Below, piece after piece: positions 256 through 7,132 of a DNA stretch of 7,381 nt. Position numbers and translations under genes: made by a program. This DNA is from Syntrophomonadaceae bacterium (GTDB taxonomy: Bacteria; Bacillota_B; Syntrophomonadia; Syntrophomonadales; Syntrophomonadaceae): assembly GCA_030627145.1 (NCBI GenBank), contig DAOUSQ010000047.1:1-7381 (forward strand). The letters are read 5' to 3'. How positions within the stretch are numbered: the stretch's first letter is position 1; each line of letters opens with the position of its first letter. The notes beneath the pieces are model-generated. The model saw only the letters and a program-made list of their open reading frames with translations, was not told the DNA's origin and searched no databases.

Positions 256-1527
256 ATGGGAATGACAATAAGCCAGAAGATACTTGCAGTTCATGCTGGC
301 AGAGATTATATTGAACCAGGGGAACTGGTTAATTGTAAGCTGGATGTCGTTTTGGGTAACGATGTAACTGCACCGGTTGCTATATCCGAATTTAACAAGC
401 TGGGGTTAACAGAGGTTTTTGACCCGGACAAAGTAGTCCTGGTTCCTGATCATTTTACACCCAATAAAGATATTAAGTCTGCTGAACAATGTAAGGTAAT
501 GCGTTGTTTTGCCCGGGAATATAAAATAAAAAATTATTTTGAAATCGGGCAGATGGGAATAGAACACTGCTTATTACCTGAACAGGGATTAGTGTTACCG
601 GGTGATTTAATTATAGGTGCAGATTCACATACCTGTACTTATGGAGCCTTGGGGGCATTTTCCACTGGTGTGGGATCAACTGATATGGCGGCAGGAATGG
701 CAACTGGTGAAGCATGGTTTAAGGTCCCTGAGAGCATTAAATTTATTTATTATGGGAAGCTACCCCGCTGGGTAAGCGGTAAAGATTTAATACTACATAC
801 CATTGGTGATATAGGTGTTGATGGAGCAAGATACATGTCTATGGAATTTACCGGGGAGGTAATAAAAAAGTTATCTATTGATAACCGGTTTACAATGGCT
901 AACATGGCTATAGAAGCCGGAGGTAAGAACGGAATCATTGAAGCTGATGATATTACCATGGAATATGTGAAAAAAAGAGCCCGGCGTCCATTTGAGGTAT
1001 ATAGATCTGATCCTGATGCACAGTATTTTGATGTAAGAGAATATGATGTTTCTCAAATGGAACCAGTAATAGCTTTTCCGCATCTACCCGAGAATACCCG
1101 ACCGGTAAGTGAGGCAACTGATATCAGTCTTGACCAGGTAGTTATAGGATCATGTACAAATGGGAGAATAGAGGATTTAGAAATAGCTGCTTCTTTAATG
1201 AAGGGGCACAGGGTTCATCCTGAAATGAGAGTAATTATTTTTCCCGGAACTCAGCAGATATATCTCGAAGCTATGCAAAAAGGTTATATTGAGGTGTTCA
1301 TCAAAGCGGGGGCAGTGGTTAGCACTCCTACCTGCGGCCCTTGCCTGGGTGGGCATATGGGTATCCTTGCCAGAGGTGAAAGAGCCCTGGCAACTACCAA
1401 CCGGAATTTTGTGGGTAGAATGGGGCACCCGGAAAGTGAAGTTTACCTGGCCAGTCCTGCAGTGGCAGCGGCAAGTGCTATAAAAGGGAGAATTACTCCT
1501 CCGTGGGAGATTAACAATAATGTGTAA
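256..1527 (+). CDS. leuC: 3-isopropylmalate / (R)-2-methylmalate dehydratase, large subunit
   Basis: Large subunit of the [4Fe-4S] aconitase-family isomerase. With LeuD it converts 2-isopropylmalate to 3-isopropylmalate (leucine) and, with cimA in the same operon, probably citramalate to 3-methylmalate (isoleucine). It acts in the cytoplasm. At 423 residues it belongs to the short, archaeal/HacA-type LeuC group rather than the roughly 466-residue enterobacterial type. Visible motifs are [15 protein letters not shown] (121-135), [12 protein letters not shown] (297-308) and [11 protein letters not shown] (357-367). Cys300, Cys360 and Cys363 are the expected cluster ligands. ATG 256 is chosen because GGAGG at 244-248 lies 7 nt upstream; ATG 262 would be spaced too far. 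It is the first gene of leuCDB-cimA in this window. It is full length with no frameshift seen. Whether it handles isopropylmalate, citramalate or both cannot be read from the large subunit. Confidence 0.95.
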
Positions 1528-1599: not shown

Positions 1600-2088
1600 A
1601 TGAGATTTTGTGGTAAGGTACATAAATTCGGCGCTGATATAGATACTGATGCTATTATCCCGGCACGTTATCTAAATACTTTTGATCCTCAGGAATTGGC
1701 TAAACATTGCATGGAGGATGCTGATACTGAATTTCCTGATAAAGTGAAGAAAGGCGATATCATTGTTGCCGATAAGAATTTTGGCTGTGGAAGTTCCAGG
1801 GAGCATGCACCTATAGCTATCAAGGGTGCCGGGGTATCATGTGTAATAGCCAGGTCTTTTGCCCGTATTTTCTACCGGAATTGTATTAATACTGGACTGC
1901 CTATACTTGAATCTCCTGAGGCAGTTGATGCTATAAACGAAGGAGACGAAATAGAAGTTGAACTGGAAACAGGAAAGATAAGAAATCTAAAGACTAATGA
2001 GGTTTACCAGGCTACGCCCTTTCCTGAATTTATGCAGGAAATAATGGCAAAAGGTGGTCTGATCAATTATGTAAAGAATAAGGTGTAA
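1600..2088 (+). CDS. leuD: 3-isopropylmalate / (R)-2-methylmalate dehydratase, small subunit
   Basis: Small subunit of the LeuCD isomerase, supplying the swivel domain that closes over the substrate. The 162-residue length fits the short LeuD type that pairs with short LeuC. Motifs: [13 protein letters not shown] (13-25), and [19 protein letters not shown] with the following [16 protein letters not shown], the conserved substrate-binding region. The start is ATG 1600, where AAGGAGAG (1586-1593) lies 6 nt upstream. An in-frame ATG at 1570 would add ten residues but has no ribosome site and would put the real one inside the gene. The loop YLNT (24-27) aligns with the segment reported to set specificity in methanogen isopropylmalate/homoaconitate isomerases. 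It sits 72 bp after leuC and 21 bp before leuB, so co-transcription is likely. Confidence 0.95.
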
Positions 2089-2109
2089 GTTATAGAAAGG
2101 ATGGTGTTA

Positions 2110-3204
2110 ATGTACAAGATAGCGGTACTTCCTGGAGATGGTATAGGAGTAGAGATAGTACCTGAAGCATTAAAAACCCTAGAAGCTATTTCAAAGCAAT
2201 ATGGGCACAGTTTCGAGTTCAATGAAGCACTGGTAGGAGGTGCAGCTTATGATGAAGTAGGACATCCTCTGCCTGATGAGACAATAAATTTGTGCAAGAA
2301 TTCTGATGCAGTACTATTAGGGGCTATAGGGGGACCTAAATGGGATAATTTACCTGTTCATTTGCGTCCAGAAGTAGGTGCGCTACTTCCATTGAGAAAG
2401 GAATTGGCACTGTTTGCCAATCTACGTCCCTGTACGCTTTTTCCGGGACTTCTCTATGCTTCAACCCTGAAGGAAGATGTAATTAGTGGGGTTGATATCA
2501 TGGTAATTAGAGAACTGACCGGGGGGTTATATTTTGGCGAAAAGAGCCGTGAAAAAACCGCTGATGGAGGAGAAAAGGCAACTGATATATTAAGTTACTC
2601 AACGTATGAGATAGAAAGAATTGTCCGTTTTGCCTATGAAACAGCCCGCAGGCGGCGGAAAAAACTTTGTTCGGTGGATAAAGCCAATGTTCTTGAGACC
2701 TCACGTTTATGGAGAGAGTGTGTAAATGACTTGGCTGGAGACTATGCTGATGTTGAGACGAGCCATATGTATATAGATAATTGTTCTATGCAGTTAATCA
2801 GATATCCTAAACAGTTTGATGTAATAGTAACTGAAAACATGTTTGGGGATATACTTACCGATGAGGCTTCAATGTTGACCGGTTCTATTGGCATGTTACC
2901 CAGTGCTTCTATTGGCGGAGAGGTAGGTCTTTATGAGCCTTCCCACGGAAGTGCCCCGGATATCGCCGGGCAAAACAGGGCAAATCCACTGGCGACTATA
3001 CTTTCTGCTGCAATGATGCTTAGATATTCGTTCAATCTGGAAGAAGAGGCCTGTTTAATTGAAAAGGCTGTACGGAGCGTTTTAGAAGAAGGCTACCGGA
3101 CTCCGGATTTAATGGAGAAAGGGGCAAAATTGCTCAATACTGTTCAGATGGGAGATATAGTTGCAGAAAAAATAGAAAAGTTAGGAGTTGGGGGTAAGGA
3201 GTGA
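2110..3204 (+). CDS. leuB: 3-isopropylmalate dehydrogenase
   Basis: NAD-dependent beta-decarboxylating dehydrogenase of the isocitrate/isopropylmalate family, cytoplasmic. It oxidises 3-isopropylmalate to 2-oxoisocaproate and, in the citramalate route, 3-methylmalate to 2-oxobutyrate. The 364-residue length is typical of bacterial LeuB. Motifs: LPGDGIG (7-13), GGPKWD (74-79), substrate-binding arginines in LPLRKEL and FANLRP (Arg96, Arg106), [11 protein letters not shown] (134-144) with catalytic Tyr141, VDKANVL (189-195) with catalytic Lys191, metal-binding Asp223, Asp247 and Asp251, and the NAD-binding [14 protein letters not shown] (280-293). ATG 2110 is preferred over in-frame ATG 2101 because AAAGGA (2096-2101) lies 8 nt before 2110 but overlaps 2101. 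The last residues (about GVGGKE) and the stop lie inside a long inverted repeat, so the C-terminal tail may come from a repeat insertion. Confidence 0.95.
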
Positions 3205-3276: not shown

Positions 3277-3282
3277 AGGAGG
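3277..3282 (+). promoter_or_regulatory. Strong ribosome binding site pointing to TTG 3291 of cimA
   Basis: AGGAGG is followed by an 8-nt spacer and then TTG at 3291-3293, an optimal arrangement. This marks TTG 3291 as the translation start even though its frame closes at TAG 3306-3308. No ATG, GTG or TTG occurs in the CimA frame between its upstream stop (TAA 3284-3286) and the catalytic motif. Confidence 0.8.
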
Positions 3283-3290
3283 TTAAACTG

Positions 3291-4873
3291 TTGGGAATAA
3301 AAAAATAGATGTTGTTATATATGATACTACCCTGCGTGATGGGGCCCAGGGAGAAGGGCTTTCATTTTCTTTAGATGACAAACTCAAGATAGCTGAAAGA
3401 CTGGATTTTTTAGGAATTTCCTATATTGAAGGTGGTTGGCCGGGAAGTAATCCTAAAGATTTGGAATTCTTTCGGCAGGTTCAGAAATTGAATTTACAAA
3501 ACTCGCGTATTACAGCTTTCAGTTCAACACGAAAACCTGGGGTACCTGTTGAAAAGGATAGTAATATTAGAACTATTTTAGAATCAGGCGTATCTACGGC
3601 TACAGTGTTTGGCAAGACATGGGATTTTCATGTGCTGCGGGCCCTGGAAACTACTCTGGATGAAAACCTCAGCATGATTGGAGACACTGTTTCTTACTTG
3701 AAAGACAGGGGATTGGAAGTAATATTTGATGCAGAGCATTTTTTTGATGGTTATAAAAATAATAGTAATTATGCCCTGCAGGTATTGCAAACTGCGGCTG
3801 ATGCCGGAGCTGACTGGTTGGTGTTGTGTGATACCAACGGGGGATTGCTTCCCTGGGAAATTGAGAATATTATCAAACAGGTGAAAAGTTTTAAAGATAT
3901 TCCCCTGGGAATTCATGCTCATAATGATTCGGCATGCGCAGTGAGCAATTCATTAATAGCGGTAAAACAGGGATGTATGCAGGTGCAGGGTACTATAAAT
4001 GGTTACGGGGAACGGTGTGGAAATGCCGATCTCTGCTCGATAATTCCCAACCTGGAACTTAAAATGGGAATAAAAGCTCTGCCTGAGGGAAAACTCAAAC
4101 ATCTGAGCGAAGTCTCTCATTATGTAAGTGAGATAGCCAATATGCCTCATTATAATAGCCAGCCTTTTGTCGGTCATGGAGCGTTTGCTCACAAAGGCGG
4201 GATACATGTAAGTGCGTTATTAAAAGATTCTTTAACATATGAACATATAAACCCGGAAGAAGTAGGTAATCACCGCCGTGTCCTGGTGTCTGAGCTTTCA
4301 GGACTTTCCAATCTTCTTTACAAAGCCAGAGAATTGGGCATAGATGTTAATAGTTACGATGCTGAAACCCGTAAAGTTATAAAACAGATCAAAGAATTGG
4401 AAAATCAGGGTTTGCAGTTTGAAGGTGCTGATGCTTCACTGGAATTGTTTTTAAGAAAAGCGTTCGGACAGTATAAAGAATTCTTTCAGTTAAAAAATTT
4501 AAAAATAATCCTGGAAAAAAACGAAGATGAAGAAATTACTGCTGAAGCTATGATAAAAATTGCTGCAGGGGAGAAGACTTTCCATACAGCCACTGAAGGA
4601 GATGGGCCGGTTAATGCTCTTGATAATTCCCTGCGTAAAGCTTTAGTTGAAATGTATCCTAACATAAACGAAATGCACCTCAGTGATTATAAAGTCAGGG
4701 TCCTTAATGGAAATAAAGGGACAGCAGCTAGGGTAAGAGTTCTTATAGAATCATCTGATAAAACCACCAAGTGGAGTACAGTTGGGGTTTCAGAAAACAT
4801 TATTGAAGCTTCCTGGCAGGCTATAGTAGACAGCATTAATTATATGTTAATGAAACAACACCTGGATCTATAA
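3291..4873 (+). CDS. cimA: (R)-citramalate synthase, requires a -1 frameshift near its start
   Basis: Condenses pyruvate with acetyl-CoA to (R)-citramalate, the first step of the threonine-independent isoleucine route. It matches the long CimA type of Geobacter and Clostridia: DTTLRDGAQGEG (12-23, catalytic Arg16 and Asp17), YIEGGWPGSNPKD (45-57), metal-binding HAHND (209-213), GTINGYGERCGNAD (234-247), then a linker and a C-terminal LeuA-type regulatory domain (roughly 400-520), the usual site of isoleucine feedback. From TTG 3291 the frame reads M-G-I-K-K then TAG. A -1 shift on the A run 3299-3305 gives MGIKK-IDVVIYDTTLRD and a 527-residue protein of normal length. A start at TTG 3461 would give 470 residues but delete Arg16 and Asp17, so it cannot be the functional product. 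Either recoding or slippage restores the frame, the gene is a recent pseudogene, or one A is missing from the assembly. Identity is near certain; expression state is not. Confidence 0.9.
3299..3308 (+). other. Candidate -1 slippery site A-AAA-AAA followed by TAG
   Basis: In the TTG 3291 frame the codons are ATA AAA AAA TAG. The seven A (3299-3305) are thus framed exactly as the X-XXY-YYZ heptamer of -1 frameshifting, with a stop codon next. Slipping back one base continues as ATA GAT GTT into CimA. A run of eight A would join the frames without recoding. The nearest downstream stem, CCCTG/CAGGG (3330-3334 with 3347-3351), starts 24 nt away, farther than usual stimulators. The upstream AGGAGG (3277-3282) could act as an internal stimulator as in dnaX, though it is more distant. 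Confidence 0.5.
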
Positions 4874-6256: not shown

Positions 6257-7132
6257 ATGGACAAGCATCAAAGAGTATGGGCAGCGCTTAATAAAGAAAA
6301 GGTAGACAGACCGCCTGCAGGAGAGATTTTAATTACTGATGAGTTTATTAAACAATTTACCGGTGGCAATCTGGAGTCTGTACTTGCTTGTTTAAATACT
6401 GACCTGGTTACCTTGAAAATAAACGAAAGTAAATCCAAATCCAGGTGGAGTTACTGGCAGCAGCAGGGCTATTTTATTTTTGGTTTTATGCAGGGGCCAT
6501 TTATGCTTATGGCAGAAGAACTTGGCTGGAAAGAAATGTCATATTTGATAGTAAAAAAACCTGAAGAAGCAGAAAAAATTATGGGTAATTTTATTAACAA
6601 CGGATCTAAATTGGCAGTTCAGGCTCTGGATGCTGGATGTGAAGGAATAATTATTGCAGATGATTTGGCTGGAAAACATGGGCTTCTAGTGTCTCCAACA
6701 TTTTTATGTGCGCACTATTTTCCACTTTTAGCAAGGTTATTAAAAAGACTGGATTATAACACTGTACCTTTTATTTTTCACTCTGATGGTAATATACTTG
6801 ATATTATTTCCTCTATTAAGGAAACTGGATTTTGGGGAATGCAGTGTCTGCAGCCTTCAGCAGGCATAAGTAAAGATAATTTTTCACTAGATATATTGGG
6901 GAATTGGGTTTTTTGGGGAAACTATGAGTATGAAGATATAGCAAAAATGAAAACTGTCGAACAGGTAGAAAATGAAGTGAATGAGCTATTAAAAGACTGG
7001 AGCAGCTTTCCGGGCTACATTTTTGGTTCCTCAGGAGGTTTATACAAGGGTATACCCCGGGAAATTGTAAAAACTGCTTATAATATTGTGAATAAGTGGC
7101 AAAAAGCTCCAGCTAAAACAAATAATATGTGA
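6257..7132 (+). CDS. Uroporphyrinogen decarboxylase family protein, MtaA/CmuA-like
   Basis: A URO-D superfamily TIM-barrel protein. The N-terminus (RVWAALNKEKVDRPP, 6-20) is typical of the corrinoid-dependent methyltransferase branch, and the arginine/aspartate signatures of true HemE are absent. FIFHSDGNI (172-180) occupies the strand where MtaA-type enzymes carry the zinc ligands His-x-Cys; here it reads His-Ser-Asp, as in many uncharacterised relatives. GSSGGLYKGIPREIVKTAY (257-275) is the usual C-terminal barrel segment. At 291 residues it is shorter than the usual roughly 330-370. No signal peptide or membrane segment is seen. ATG 6257 follows AAGGAG (6244-6249) by 7 nt. No corrinoid protein or other methyltransferase lies in the window, so substrate and partner are unknown. 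It may be co-transcribed with the nucleotidyltransferase (94-bp gap), but a functional link is not evident. Confidence 0.8.
   Translation: MDKHQRVWAALNKEKVDRPPAGEILITDEFIKQFTGGNLESVLACLNTDLVTLKINESKSKSRWSYWQQQGYFIFGFMQGPFMLMAEELGWKEMSYLIVKKPEEAEKIMGNFINNGSKLAVQALDAGCEGIIIADDLAGKHGLLVSPTFLCAHYFPLLARLLKRLDYNTVPFIFHSDGNILDIISSIKETGFWGMQCLQPSAGISKDNFSLDILGNWVFWGNYEYEDIAKMKTVEQVENEVNELLKDWSSFPGYIFGSSGGLYKGIPREIVKTAYNIVNKWQKAPAKTNNM

Follow-up and report, generated by a model that had tools for sequence, protein, structure and literature searches.

Comparison of relatives strongly supports a -1 frame change around the first three codons read by ribosomes initiating at cimA, the gene for citramalate synthase (CimA), in two bacterial orders. 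CimA makes the first isoleucine-specific intermediate, and we consider it likely, judging from sequence, that a -1 frameshift at codons 2 and 3, triggered by a hungry isoleucine codon, gates its synthesis; the gate would respond to isoleucine shortage. An earlier note on the window (the whole 7,381-nucleotide stretch of DNA analysed here) had proposed a -1 frameshift where cimA begins, as a possible gate on entry into isoleucine synthesis, and relatives carry this arrangement.

Results

The start of cimA in the window

Profile matches identified leuC, leuD, leuB and cimA in tandem in the window (Table 1). The cimA frame, that of positions 3305 and 3296, is -1 relative to TTG 3291; it is preceded by the stop TAA 3284-3286 and is open to 4873, and its earliest ATG, GTG or TTG is TTG 3461, within the catalytic domain. 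The sole well-placed start in the window is TTG 3291 behind AGGAGG, which opens a mini-ORF of five codons. The letters given in the earlier note, from AGGAGG and the 8-nt spacer through TTG GGA ATA AAA AAA TAG to cimA in the -1 frame, were confirmed, as were the lack of an in-frame start after TAA 3284 and the normal length of the shifted product (527 residues). A search of the window against Rfam returned nothing at gathering score, and no T-box (RF00230) matched at the cimA leader. Elsewhere in the window, a 25-nt unit, CCCCATTTCCAGGAGACTGAAGTCT, occurs in tandem copy at 10-60, upstream of leuC, and positions 6257-7132 encode a protein weakly similar to methylcobalamin:coenzyme M methyltransferases (49.8 bits, cut-off 244).

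Table 1. Genes of the window and elements proposed at the cimA start
Feature	Position	Strand	Details
leuC	256-1527	+	TIGR02083, 739 bits (cut-off 611)
leuD	1600-2088	+	TIGR02084, 262 bits (cut-off 246)
leuB	2101-3204	+	Directly upstream of cimA; TIGR00169, 510 bits (cut-off 353)
Shine-Dalgarno AGGAGG	3277-3282	+	G-rich block at -13 to -9; starts the mini-ORF
Spacer, AGGAGG to TTG	3283-3290		8 nt
Mini-ORF, 0 frame	3291-3308	+	Met-Gly-Ile-Lys-Lys-stop: TTG 3291-3293, GGA 3294-3296, ATA 3297-3299, AAA 3300-3302, AAA 3303-3305, TAG 3306-3308
Putative slip tetramer G_GGA	3293-3296	+	tRNA-Gly on GGA (3294-3296) could re-pair on GGG (3293-3295)
Proposed sensor codon ATA (isoleucine)	3297-3299	+	Would be in the A site during the slip; ATA, ATT or ATC in all carriers of the motif
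A7 run	3299-3305	+	Not conserved; in the window genome it could serve only as an accessory slip site
cimA, citramalate synthase, -1 frame	3296-4873	+	TIGR00977, 791 bits (cut-off 450), residues 6-522 of 525; AAT (Asn) is the first codon read after the shift; stop codon at 4871-4873

Automatic gene calling puts the start of cimA in the wrong place. The CimA of the window (P0001) is called at 461 residues, as is a 98% identical protein from another contig (P0002); among the best 120 of 1389 homologues, which include one from Candidatus Syntrophocurvum alkaliphilum (P0092), the catalytic motif DTTLRDG is absent in 16, and 42 start six residues before it. CimA entries are shortened in databases because cimA begins in the wrong frame.

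The arrangement is conserved in two orders

An initial scan of genome contigs, from which the best 80 loci were retained, revealed the same cimA start arrangement in the nearest ones; among the scanned loci, L001 is from Thermosyntropha lipolytica and L003 from Syntrophomonas wolfei subsp. methylbutyratica. We then counted the arrangement by taxon, the first order being that of S. wolfei and G003, presumably Syntrophomonadales, and the second that of the DTU083 MAG. CimA was found at E <= 1e-150 in 55 of 63 first-order genomes; setting aside G022, whose match lacks the 5' part, all 54 readable genomes carry NTG GGR AT(A/T) in the same -1 phase to cimA. In the first order, the mini-ORF has three to eight sense codons before its 0-frame stop. 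CimA was found in 24 of 30 second-order genomes, and each of the 24 has NTG GGR AT(T/C) in that phase. The class of the DTU083 MAG has CimA in 133 of 391 genomes; 60 more ends from it, 52 of them readable, held the motif in three (L157, L158 and L161), and its motif-less ends mostly have an ordinary in-frame ATG. In the phylum of S. wolfei, CimA was found at E <= 1e-120 in 214 of 398 genomes, and the motif occurs in 6 of 14 further loci and 8 of 60 extra ends.

Over the whole survey of 258 five-prime ends, the motif occurs 96 times in phase -1, once in another phase (L165, 60 nt upstream) and never in the third; mononucleotide shuffles of 263 ends gave an expectation of 2.5 motifs over all phases. 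These counts leave out twelve unreadable ends (L173, L177, L185, L190, L199, L204, L207, L213, L307, L053, L065 and L068), five rows that are second copies from a genome already represented (L018, L054, L064, L076 and L077) and L013, which is identical to L012 across 120 nt. Programmed -1 frameshifting is expected to keep its two frames fixed at -1 across species, as is seen here in 96 of 97 motifs. On a tree built from a short alignment, the presence of the motif requires at least five gains or losses. One locus, L246 (G677), has 21 extra nucleotides behind the element that look duplicated, its distance being -47 versus -26 with the phase intact.

In an S. wolfei-like genome, a scan of TTG and ATG starts preceded by GGAGG and followed by GGR gave 17 TTG and 44 ATG sites, and no gene among them besides cimA has a long -1 ORF lacking a usual start; two of the TTG sites, L314 and L318, have by eye an ordinary ATG just behind. 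A loose scan of twenty neighbourhoods gave many matches inside genes and added nothing.

Selection on the element

Nine bases are conserved, NT(G_GGR)_AUH, encoding Met-Gly-Ile. On a FastTree tree of 258 CimA parts, codon 1 changes eight times (TTG/ATG/GTG), codon 2 fifteen times (GGA/GGG) and codon 3 six times (ATA/ATT/ATC), within classes that are fixed by the pattern and phase filter, which would hide other states; no genome of the two orders failed this filter. The spacing between NTG and the catalytic motif alters thirteen times, always by multiples of three, and the first two bases of the isoleucine codon are unchanged on the tree in two groups.

Counting changes per site revealed where one frame gives way to the other. 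In 49 first-order rows the counts over the element are 3,0,0 / 0,0,10 / 0,0,4, the wobble of the NTG frame; behind these three codons, third positions of cimA change 15, 14, 14, 10 and 13 times and their neighbours mostly less often, the exception being position 15, a first position, with 18 changes. A further 23 rows, namely 21 from the second order together with L157 and L158, share distance 38 and give 2,0,0 / 0,0,2 / 0,0,1; their positions 10-20 have no clear period, and the periodicity of cimA is plain only further on. Behind the element the wobble thus changes over from that of the NTG frame to that of cimA: what selection reads is Met-Gly-Ile in the one frame and CimA in the next.

The permitted codons are narrow. 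Neither NTG GGY ATH nor NTG GGR ATG nor CTG GGR ATH occurs in the 258 ends, and NTG GGR followed by other third codons is rare and scattered over phases -1/0/+1 (A[ACG]N 4/2/1; [CGT]TN 2/0/1). Over the first 130 cimA codons, 45-54% of those for glycine are GGY, which is found at the element in 0 of 96; ATC makes up 19-58% of the isoleucine codons of the same stretch and is found at the element in 1 of 96. GGY glycine codons are read by a different tRNA. Re-pairing of tRNA-Gly from GGR to GGG would explain their absence.

The proposed slip site and its stimulator

Two features of the mini-ORFs place the shift. Codon 4 is a stop in 26 of 96, and 30 of 96, the window included, lack any in-frame start; five genomes combine the two, and in these the shift must therefore occur at codons 1 to 3. 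A slip sequence that can re-pair in the -1 frame, G_GGR, is present in 54 of 54 first-order and 24 of 24 second-order genomes. The single good re-pairing available is that of tRNA-Gly from GGR to GGG, and we infer that the slip is made by tRNA-Gly in the P site.

The earlier note had put the slip on the A-AAA-AAA heptamer. Canonical heptamers, a common though not obligatory feature of -1 sites, are not a feature of this element: the mini-ORFs in the three groups contain X_XXY_YYZ in 8 of 55 (window included), 1 of 24 and 0 of 17 cases, and a slip on A-AAA-AAA is impossible where codon 4 is the stop. Slippage on A7 likewise fails as a general mechanism, the run lying behind the stop in those 26 of 96, and on/off switching by A7/A8 slippage finds no support in relatives, which vary freely there. 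Of the TTG-A7-TAG that relatives were to share, the start in the wrong frame proved conserved and the A7 did not.

The Shine-Dalgarno sequence of the window sits 10 nt before the slip tetramer. Stimulatory Shine-Dalgarno sequences of -1 sites lie 9-14 nt upstream of the slip site, and a single one acting in both initiation and stimulation is recorded for an IS element, according to passages of a review (PMC5009743); the one in the window thus appears placed to stimulate a -1 shift as well as to initiate. By the rule used, a Shine-Dalgarno match of at least 4 nt precedes 52 of 55, 24 of 24 and 17 of 17 mini-ORFs in the three groups, being not found in 3 of the 55 first-order ones, and the aligned spacing to NTG is 8-10 in 45 of 52 and 22 of 24, so that the element has a Shine-Dalgarno sequence in the stimulator position. 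No downstream hairpin or pseudoknot was found in the window (z 0.27), where alone it was sought.

In fed E. coli without a stimulator, Z_ZZN tetramers are barely shifty (0.147% versus 0.112%), as reported in PMC4066793, whose authors set G_GGG aside as an artefact. A large induction or other helpers would therefore be required. A weak shift at G_GGR in fed cells would suit an inducible switch.

Isoleucine synthesis and T-boxes

Threonine deaminase provides the other usual route, and its model TIGR01127 scored above cut-off in 2 of 63 first-order genomes (G026 and G050), both without a CimA match, and the other six genomes lacking CimA have neither. In the remaining 61 genomes it reached at most 101 bits versus a cut-off of 379; just 5 of 14 well-known genomes passed this cut-off in a control, which leaves the low scores as the basis of the argument. 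As the threonine deaminase route is scarce in the first order, cimA is probably needed there.

In the L215 and L227 neighbourhoods, cimA lies within a branched-chain operon (gene names by eye from N-termini). T-box leaders were found about 3 to 11 kb upstream of cimA in 3 of 7 first-order neighbourhoods and 6 of 7 others; none was found in the two S. wolfei neighbourhoods among the 7 first-order ones searched. Read by eye, the specifier is AUC (Ile) in L218, L222 and L223, and CUC (Leu) in L226, L227, L228 and L230. With AUC T-boxes upstream in three first-order loci, an isoleucine sensor at cimA would be partly redundant there.

Alternative explanations

The main alternative is a genuine shift at NTG-GGR-AUH that occurs constitutively, with a constant proportion of ribosomes slipping to set a low level of CimA and the isoleucine codon acting just as a slow codon in the A site. 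It shares all the comparative evidence for frameshifting, and it would fit the ATA found in 45 of 55 first-order elements, as against 26% of isoleucine codons among the first 130 of cimA. However, the codon is always isoleucine, all three isoleucine codons are used, the gene encodes the first enzyme of isoleucine synthesis, and the second order has ATT in 23 of 24. We regard a constitutive shift as unlikely.

Rather less probable still, and in our judgement very unlikely, is that the Met-Gly-Ile mini-ORF merely encodes a leader peptide and that translation of cimA begins at an in-frame start of its own, whether by reinitiation, by coupling or directly. In 66 of 96 cases some in-frame ATG, GTG or TTG follows the in-frame stop and precedes the catalytic motif, 25 of them with a Shine-Dalgarno match of at least 4 nt by a loose rule; in L085, L087 and L096 an in-frame ATG stands 4-5 nt behind the Shine-Dalgarno sequence. 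In the third group (13 rows, one tree clade), every row, together with L309, has an in-frame ATG (12) or GTG (2) exactly 10 nt before NTG, within the Shine-Dalgarno sequence (L241, L245-L248, L251, L255, L258, L263, L272, L283, L284, L292 and L309). These codons may be a by-product of Shine-Dalgarno sequences like GGATGA or GGTGA at a fixed spacing, or a real second start, and in-frame initiation may occur in these loci; in L272 the mini-ORF continues for 20 codons. A leader peptide would also suit L158, where the mini-ORF stop overlaps an in-frame ATG. Against it stand the 30 of 96 starts, the window's among them, that have no in-frame start at all; the TTG codon usually annotated, which in relatives is CTA, TTT, ATA and so on; the spacing of NTG and catalytic motif, which in the two orders varies solely by threes; and the first-order wobble of cimA, which begins right after the isoleucine codon and which an independent uORF would not need.

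Several loci depart from the common form. The mini-ORF of L158 (G245), TTG GGG ATT GGA ATA AGA TGA, ends in an ATGA that overlaps the in-frame cimA ATG, and the element has perhaps turned into a coupled leader peptide there. Four loci of another group, L191, L193, L195 and L197, have in-frame starts and, between the in-frame TTG or ATG and the catalytic motif, a GC-rich hairpin-like stretch and an A-run; three of them also carry an out-of-frame ATG. A non-standard in-frame start, whether the ATA at 3305 raised in the earlier note or an NTT overlapping NTG, was rejected: the codon aligned with ATA 3305 is TTG, CTA, TTT, TTA, CTG and others in relatives, and no start-like form is kept at either.

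A homopolymer at the frame change invites sequencing error, recent one-base deletion, decay of the gene in the window contig or slipping on A7, but the mundane possibilities named in the earlier note fall to conservation of the arrangement in two orders, the A7 is not conserved, and the start call of P0002 falls at the same late residue, a sign that its gene (known from the protein alone) may be equally startless, so that we give this group of explanations a negligible chance.

Discussion

In the proposed switch, ribosomes would initiate at NTG in the wrong frame; cimA of the window lacks a start codon of its own. Glycine (GGR) would be added, and the isoleucine codon would then enter the A site. 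With charged tRNA-Ile plentiful, this codon would be read and translation would terminate a few codons on; with tRNA-Ile scarce, the A site would stay empty and the peptidyl-tRNA-Gly in the P site could slip one base back, from GGR to GGG, aided by the Shine-Dalgarno sequence 10 nt upstream. Translation after the slip would proceed in the cimA frame and give a product beginning fMet-Gly-Asn/Asp-; for the window, the predicted N-terminus becomes MGNKKIDVV in place of the MGIKKIDVV expected in the earlier note.

The closest parallel is prfB, the +1 autoregulatory gene of release factor 2, which likewise has a short first ORF, makes its product from shifted ribosomes and senses through A-site occupancy; it also shares a Shine-Dalgarno stimulator (PMC5009743) and a product that relieves the shortage sensed. 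The shift at cimA differs in being -1 rather than +1, would sense aminoacyl-tRNA instead of release factor, and would fall at codons 2/3 with the initiating Shine-Dalgarno sequence itself in the stimulator position. Z_ZZN -1 sites of IS elements and dnaX likewise re-pair on three equal bases with a Shine-Dalgarno sequence 9-14 nt upstream; unlike these, the cimA site has no conserved heptamer, has no structure in the window, and lies at the start codon. Attenuation by leader peptides and the T-boxes of ilv-leu operons also sense charging of tRNA-Ile or tRNA-Leu in the mRNA of their own pathway, whereas no alternative RNA structure was found here, and sensing would lie in the enzyme gene's own reading frame and affect a single gene.

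In hungry-codon frameshifting of E. coli, too, ribosomes slip at codons for which charged tRNA is in short supply. That, however, is known as an effect in starved cells or constructs, and the cimA site is kept in a single gene. Work on starvation frameshifting has long treated it as a mishap of hungry ribosomes, and the 2016 review, in the portion consulted, knew of no natural use, there being no known examples of starvation-specific trans-frame products (PMC5009743). An earlier report of such a cimA start was not found among open-licence PMC papers, and the main text of a survey of prokaryotic frame transitions, in the part consulted, held no mention of one (PMC3711429). The cimA start is, we think with fair though not full confidence, the first natural hungry-codon switch, in which translation starts in the wrong frame and a lack of the amino acid that the enzyme serves to make, sensed through an empty A site at codon 3, restores the right one. 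With similar confidence, we believe that such a switch would be a one-codon amino-acid sensor requiring neither RNA structure nor protein, and either passed down through entire clostridial orders or acquired repeatedly.

With a nine-base element kept through orders in the gene of the first isoleucine-specific enzyme, a natural use of starvation frameshifting becomes directly testable. If true, the switch would provide a simple, amino-acid-specific control inside an operon that is under another signal, as with the leucine T-boxes of three second-order loci (specifier read by eye).
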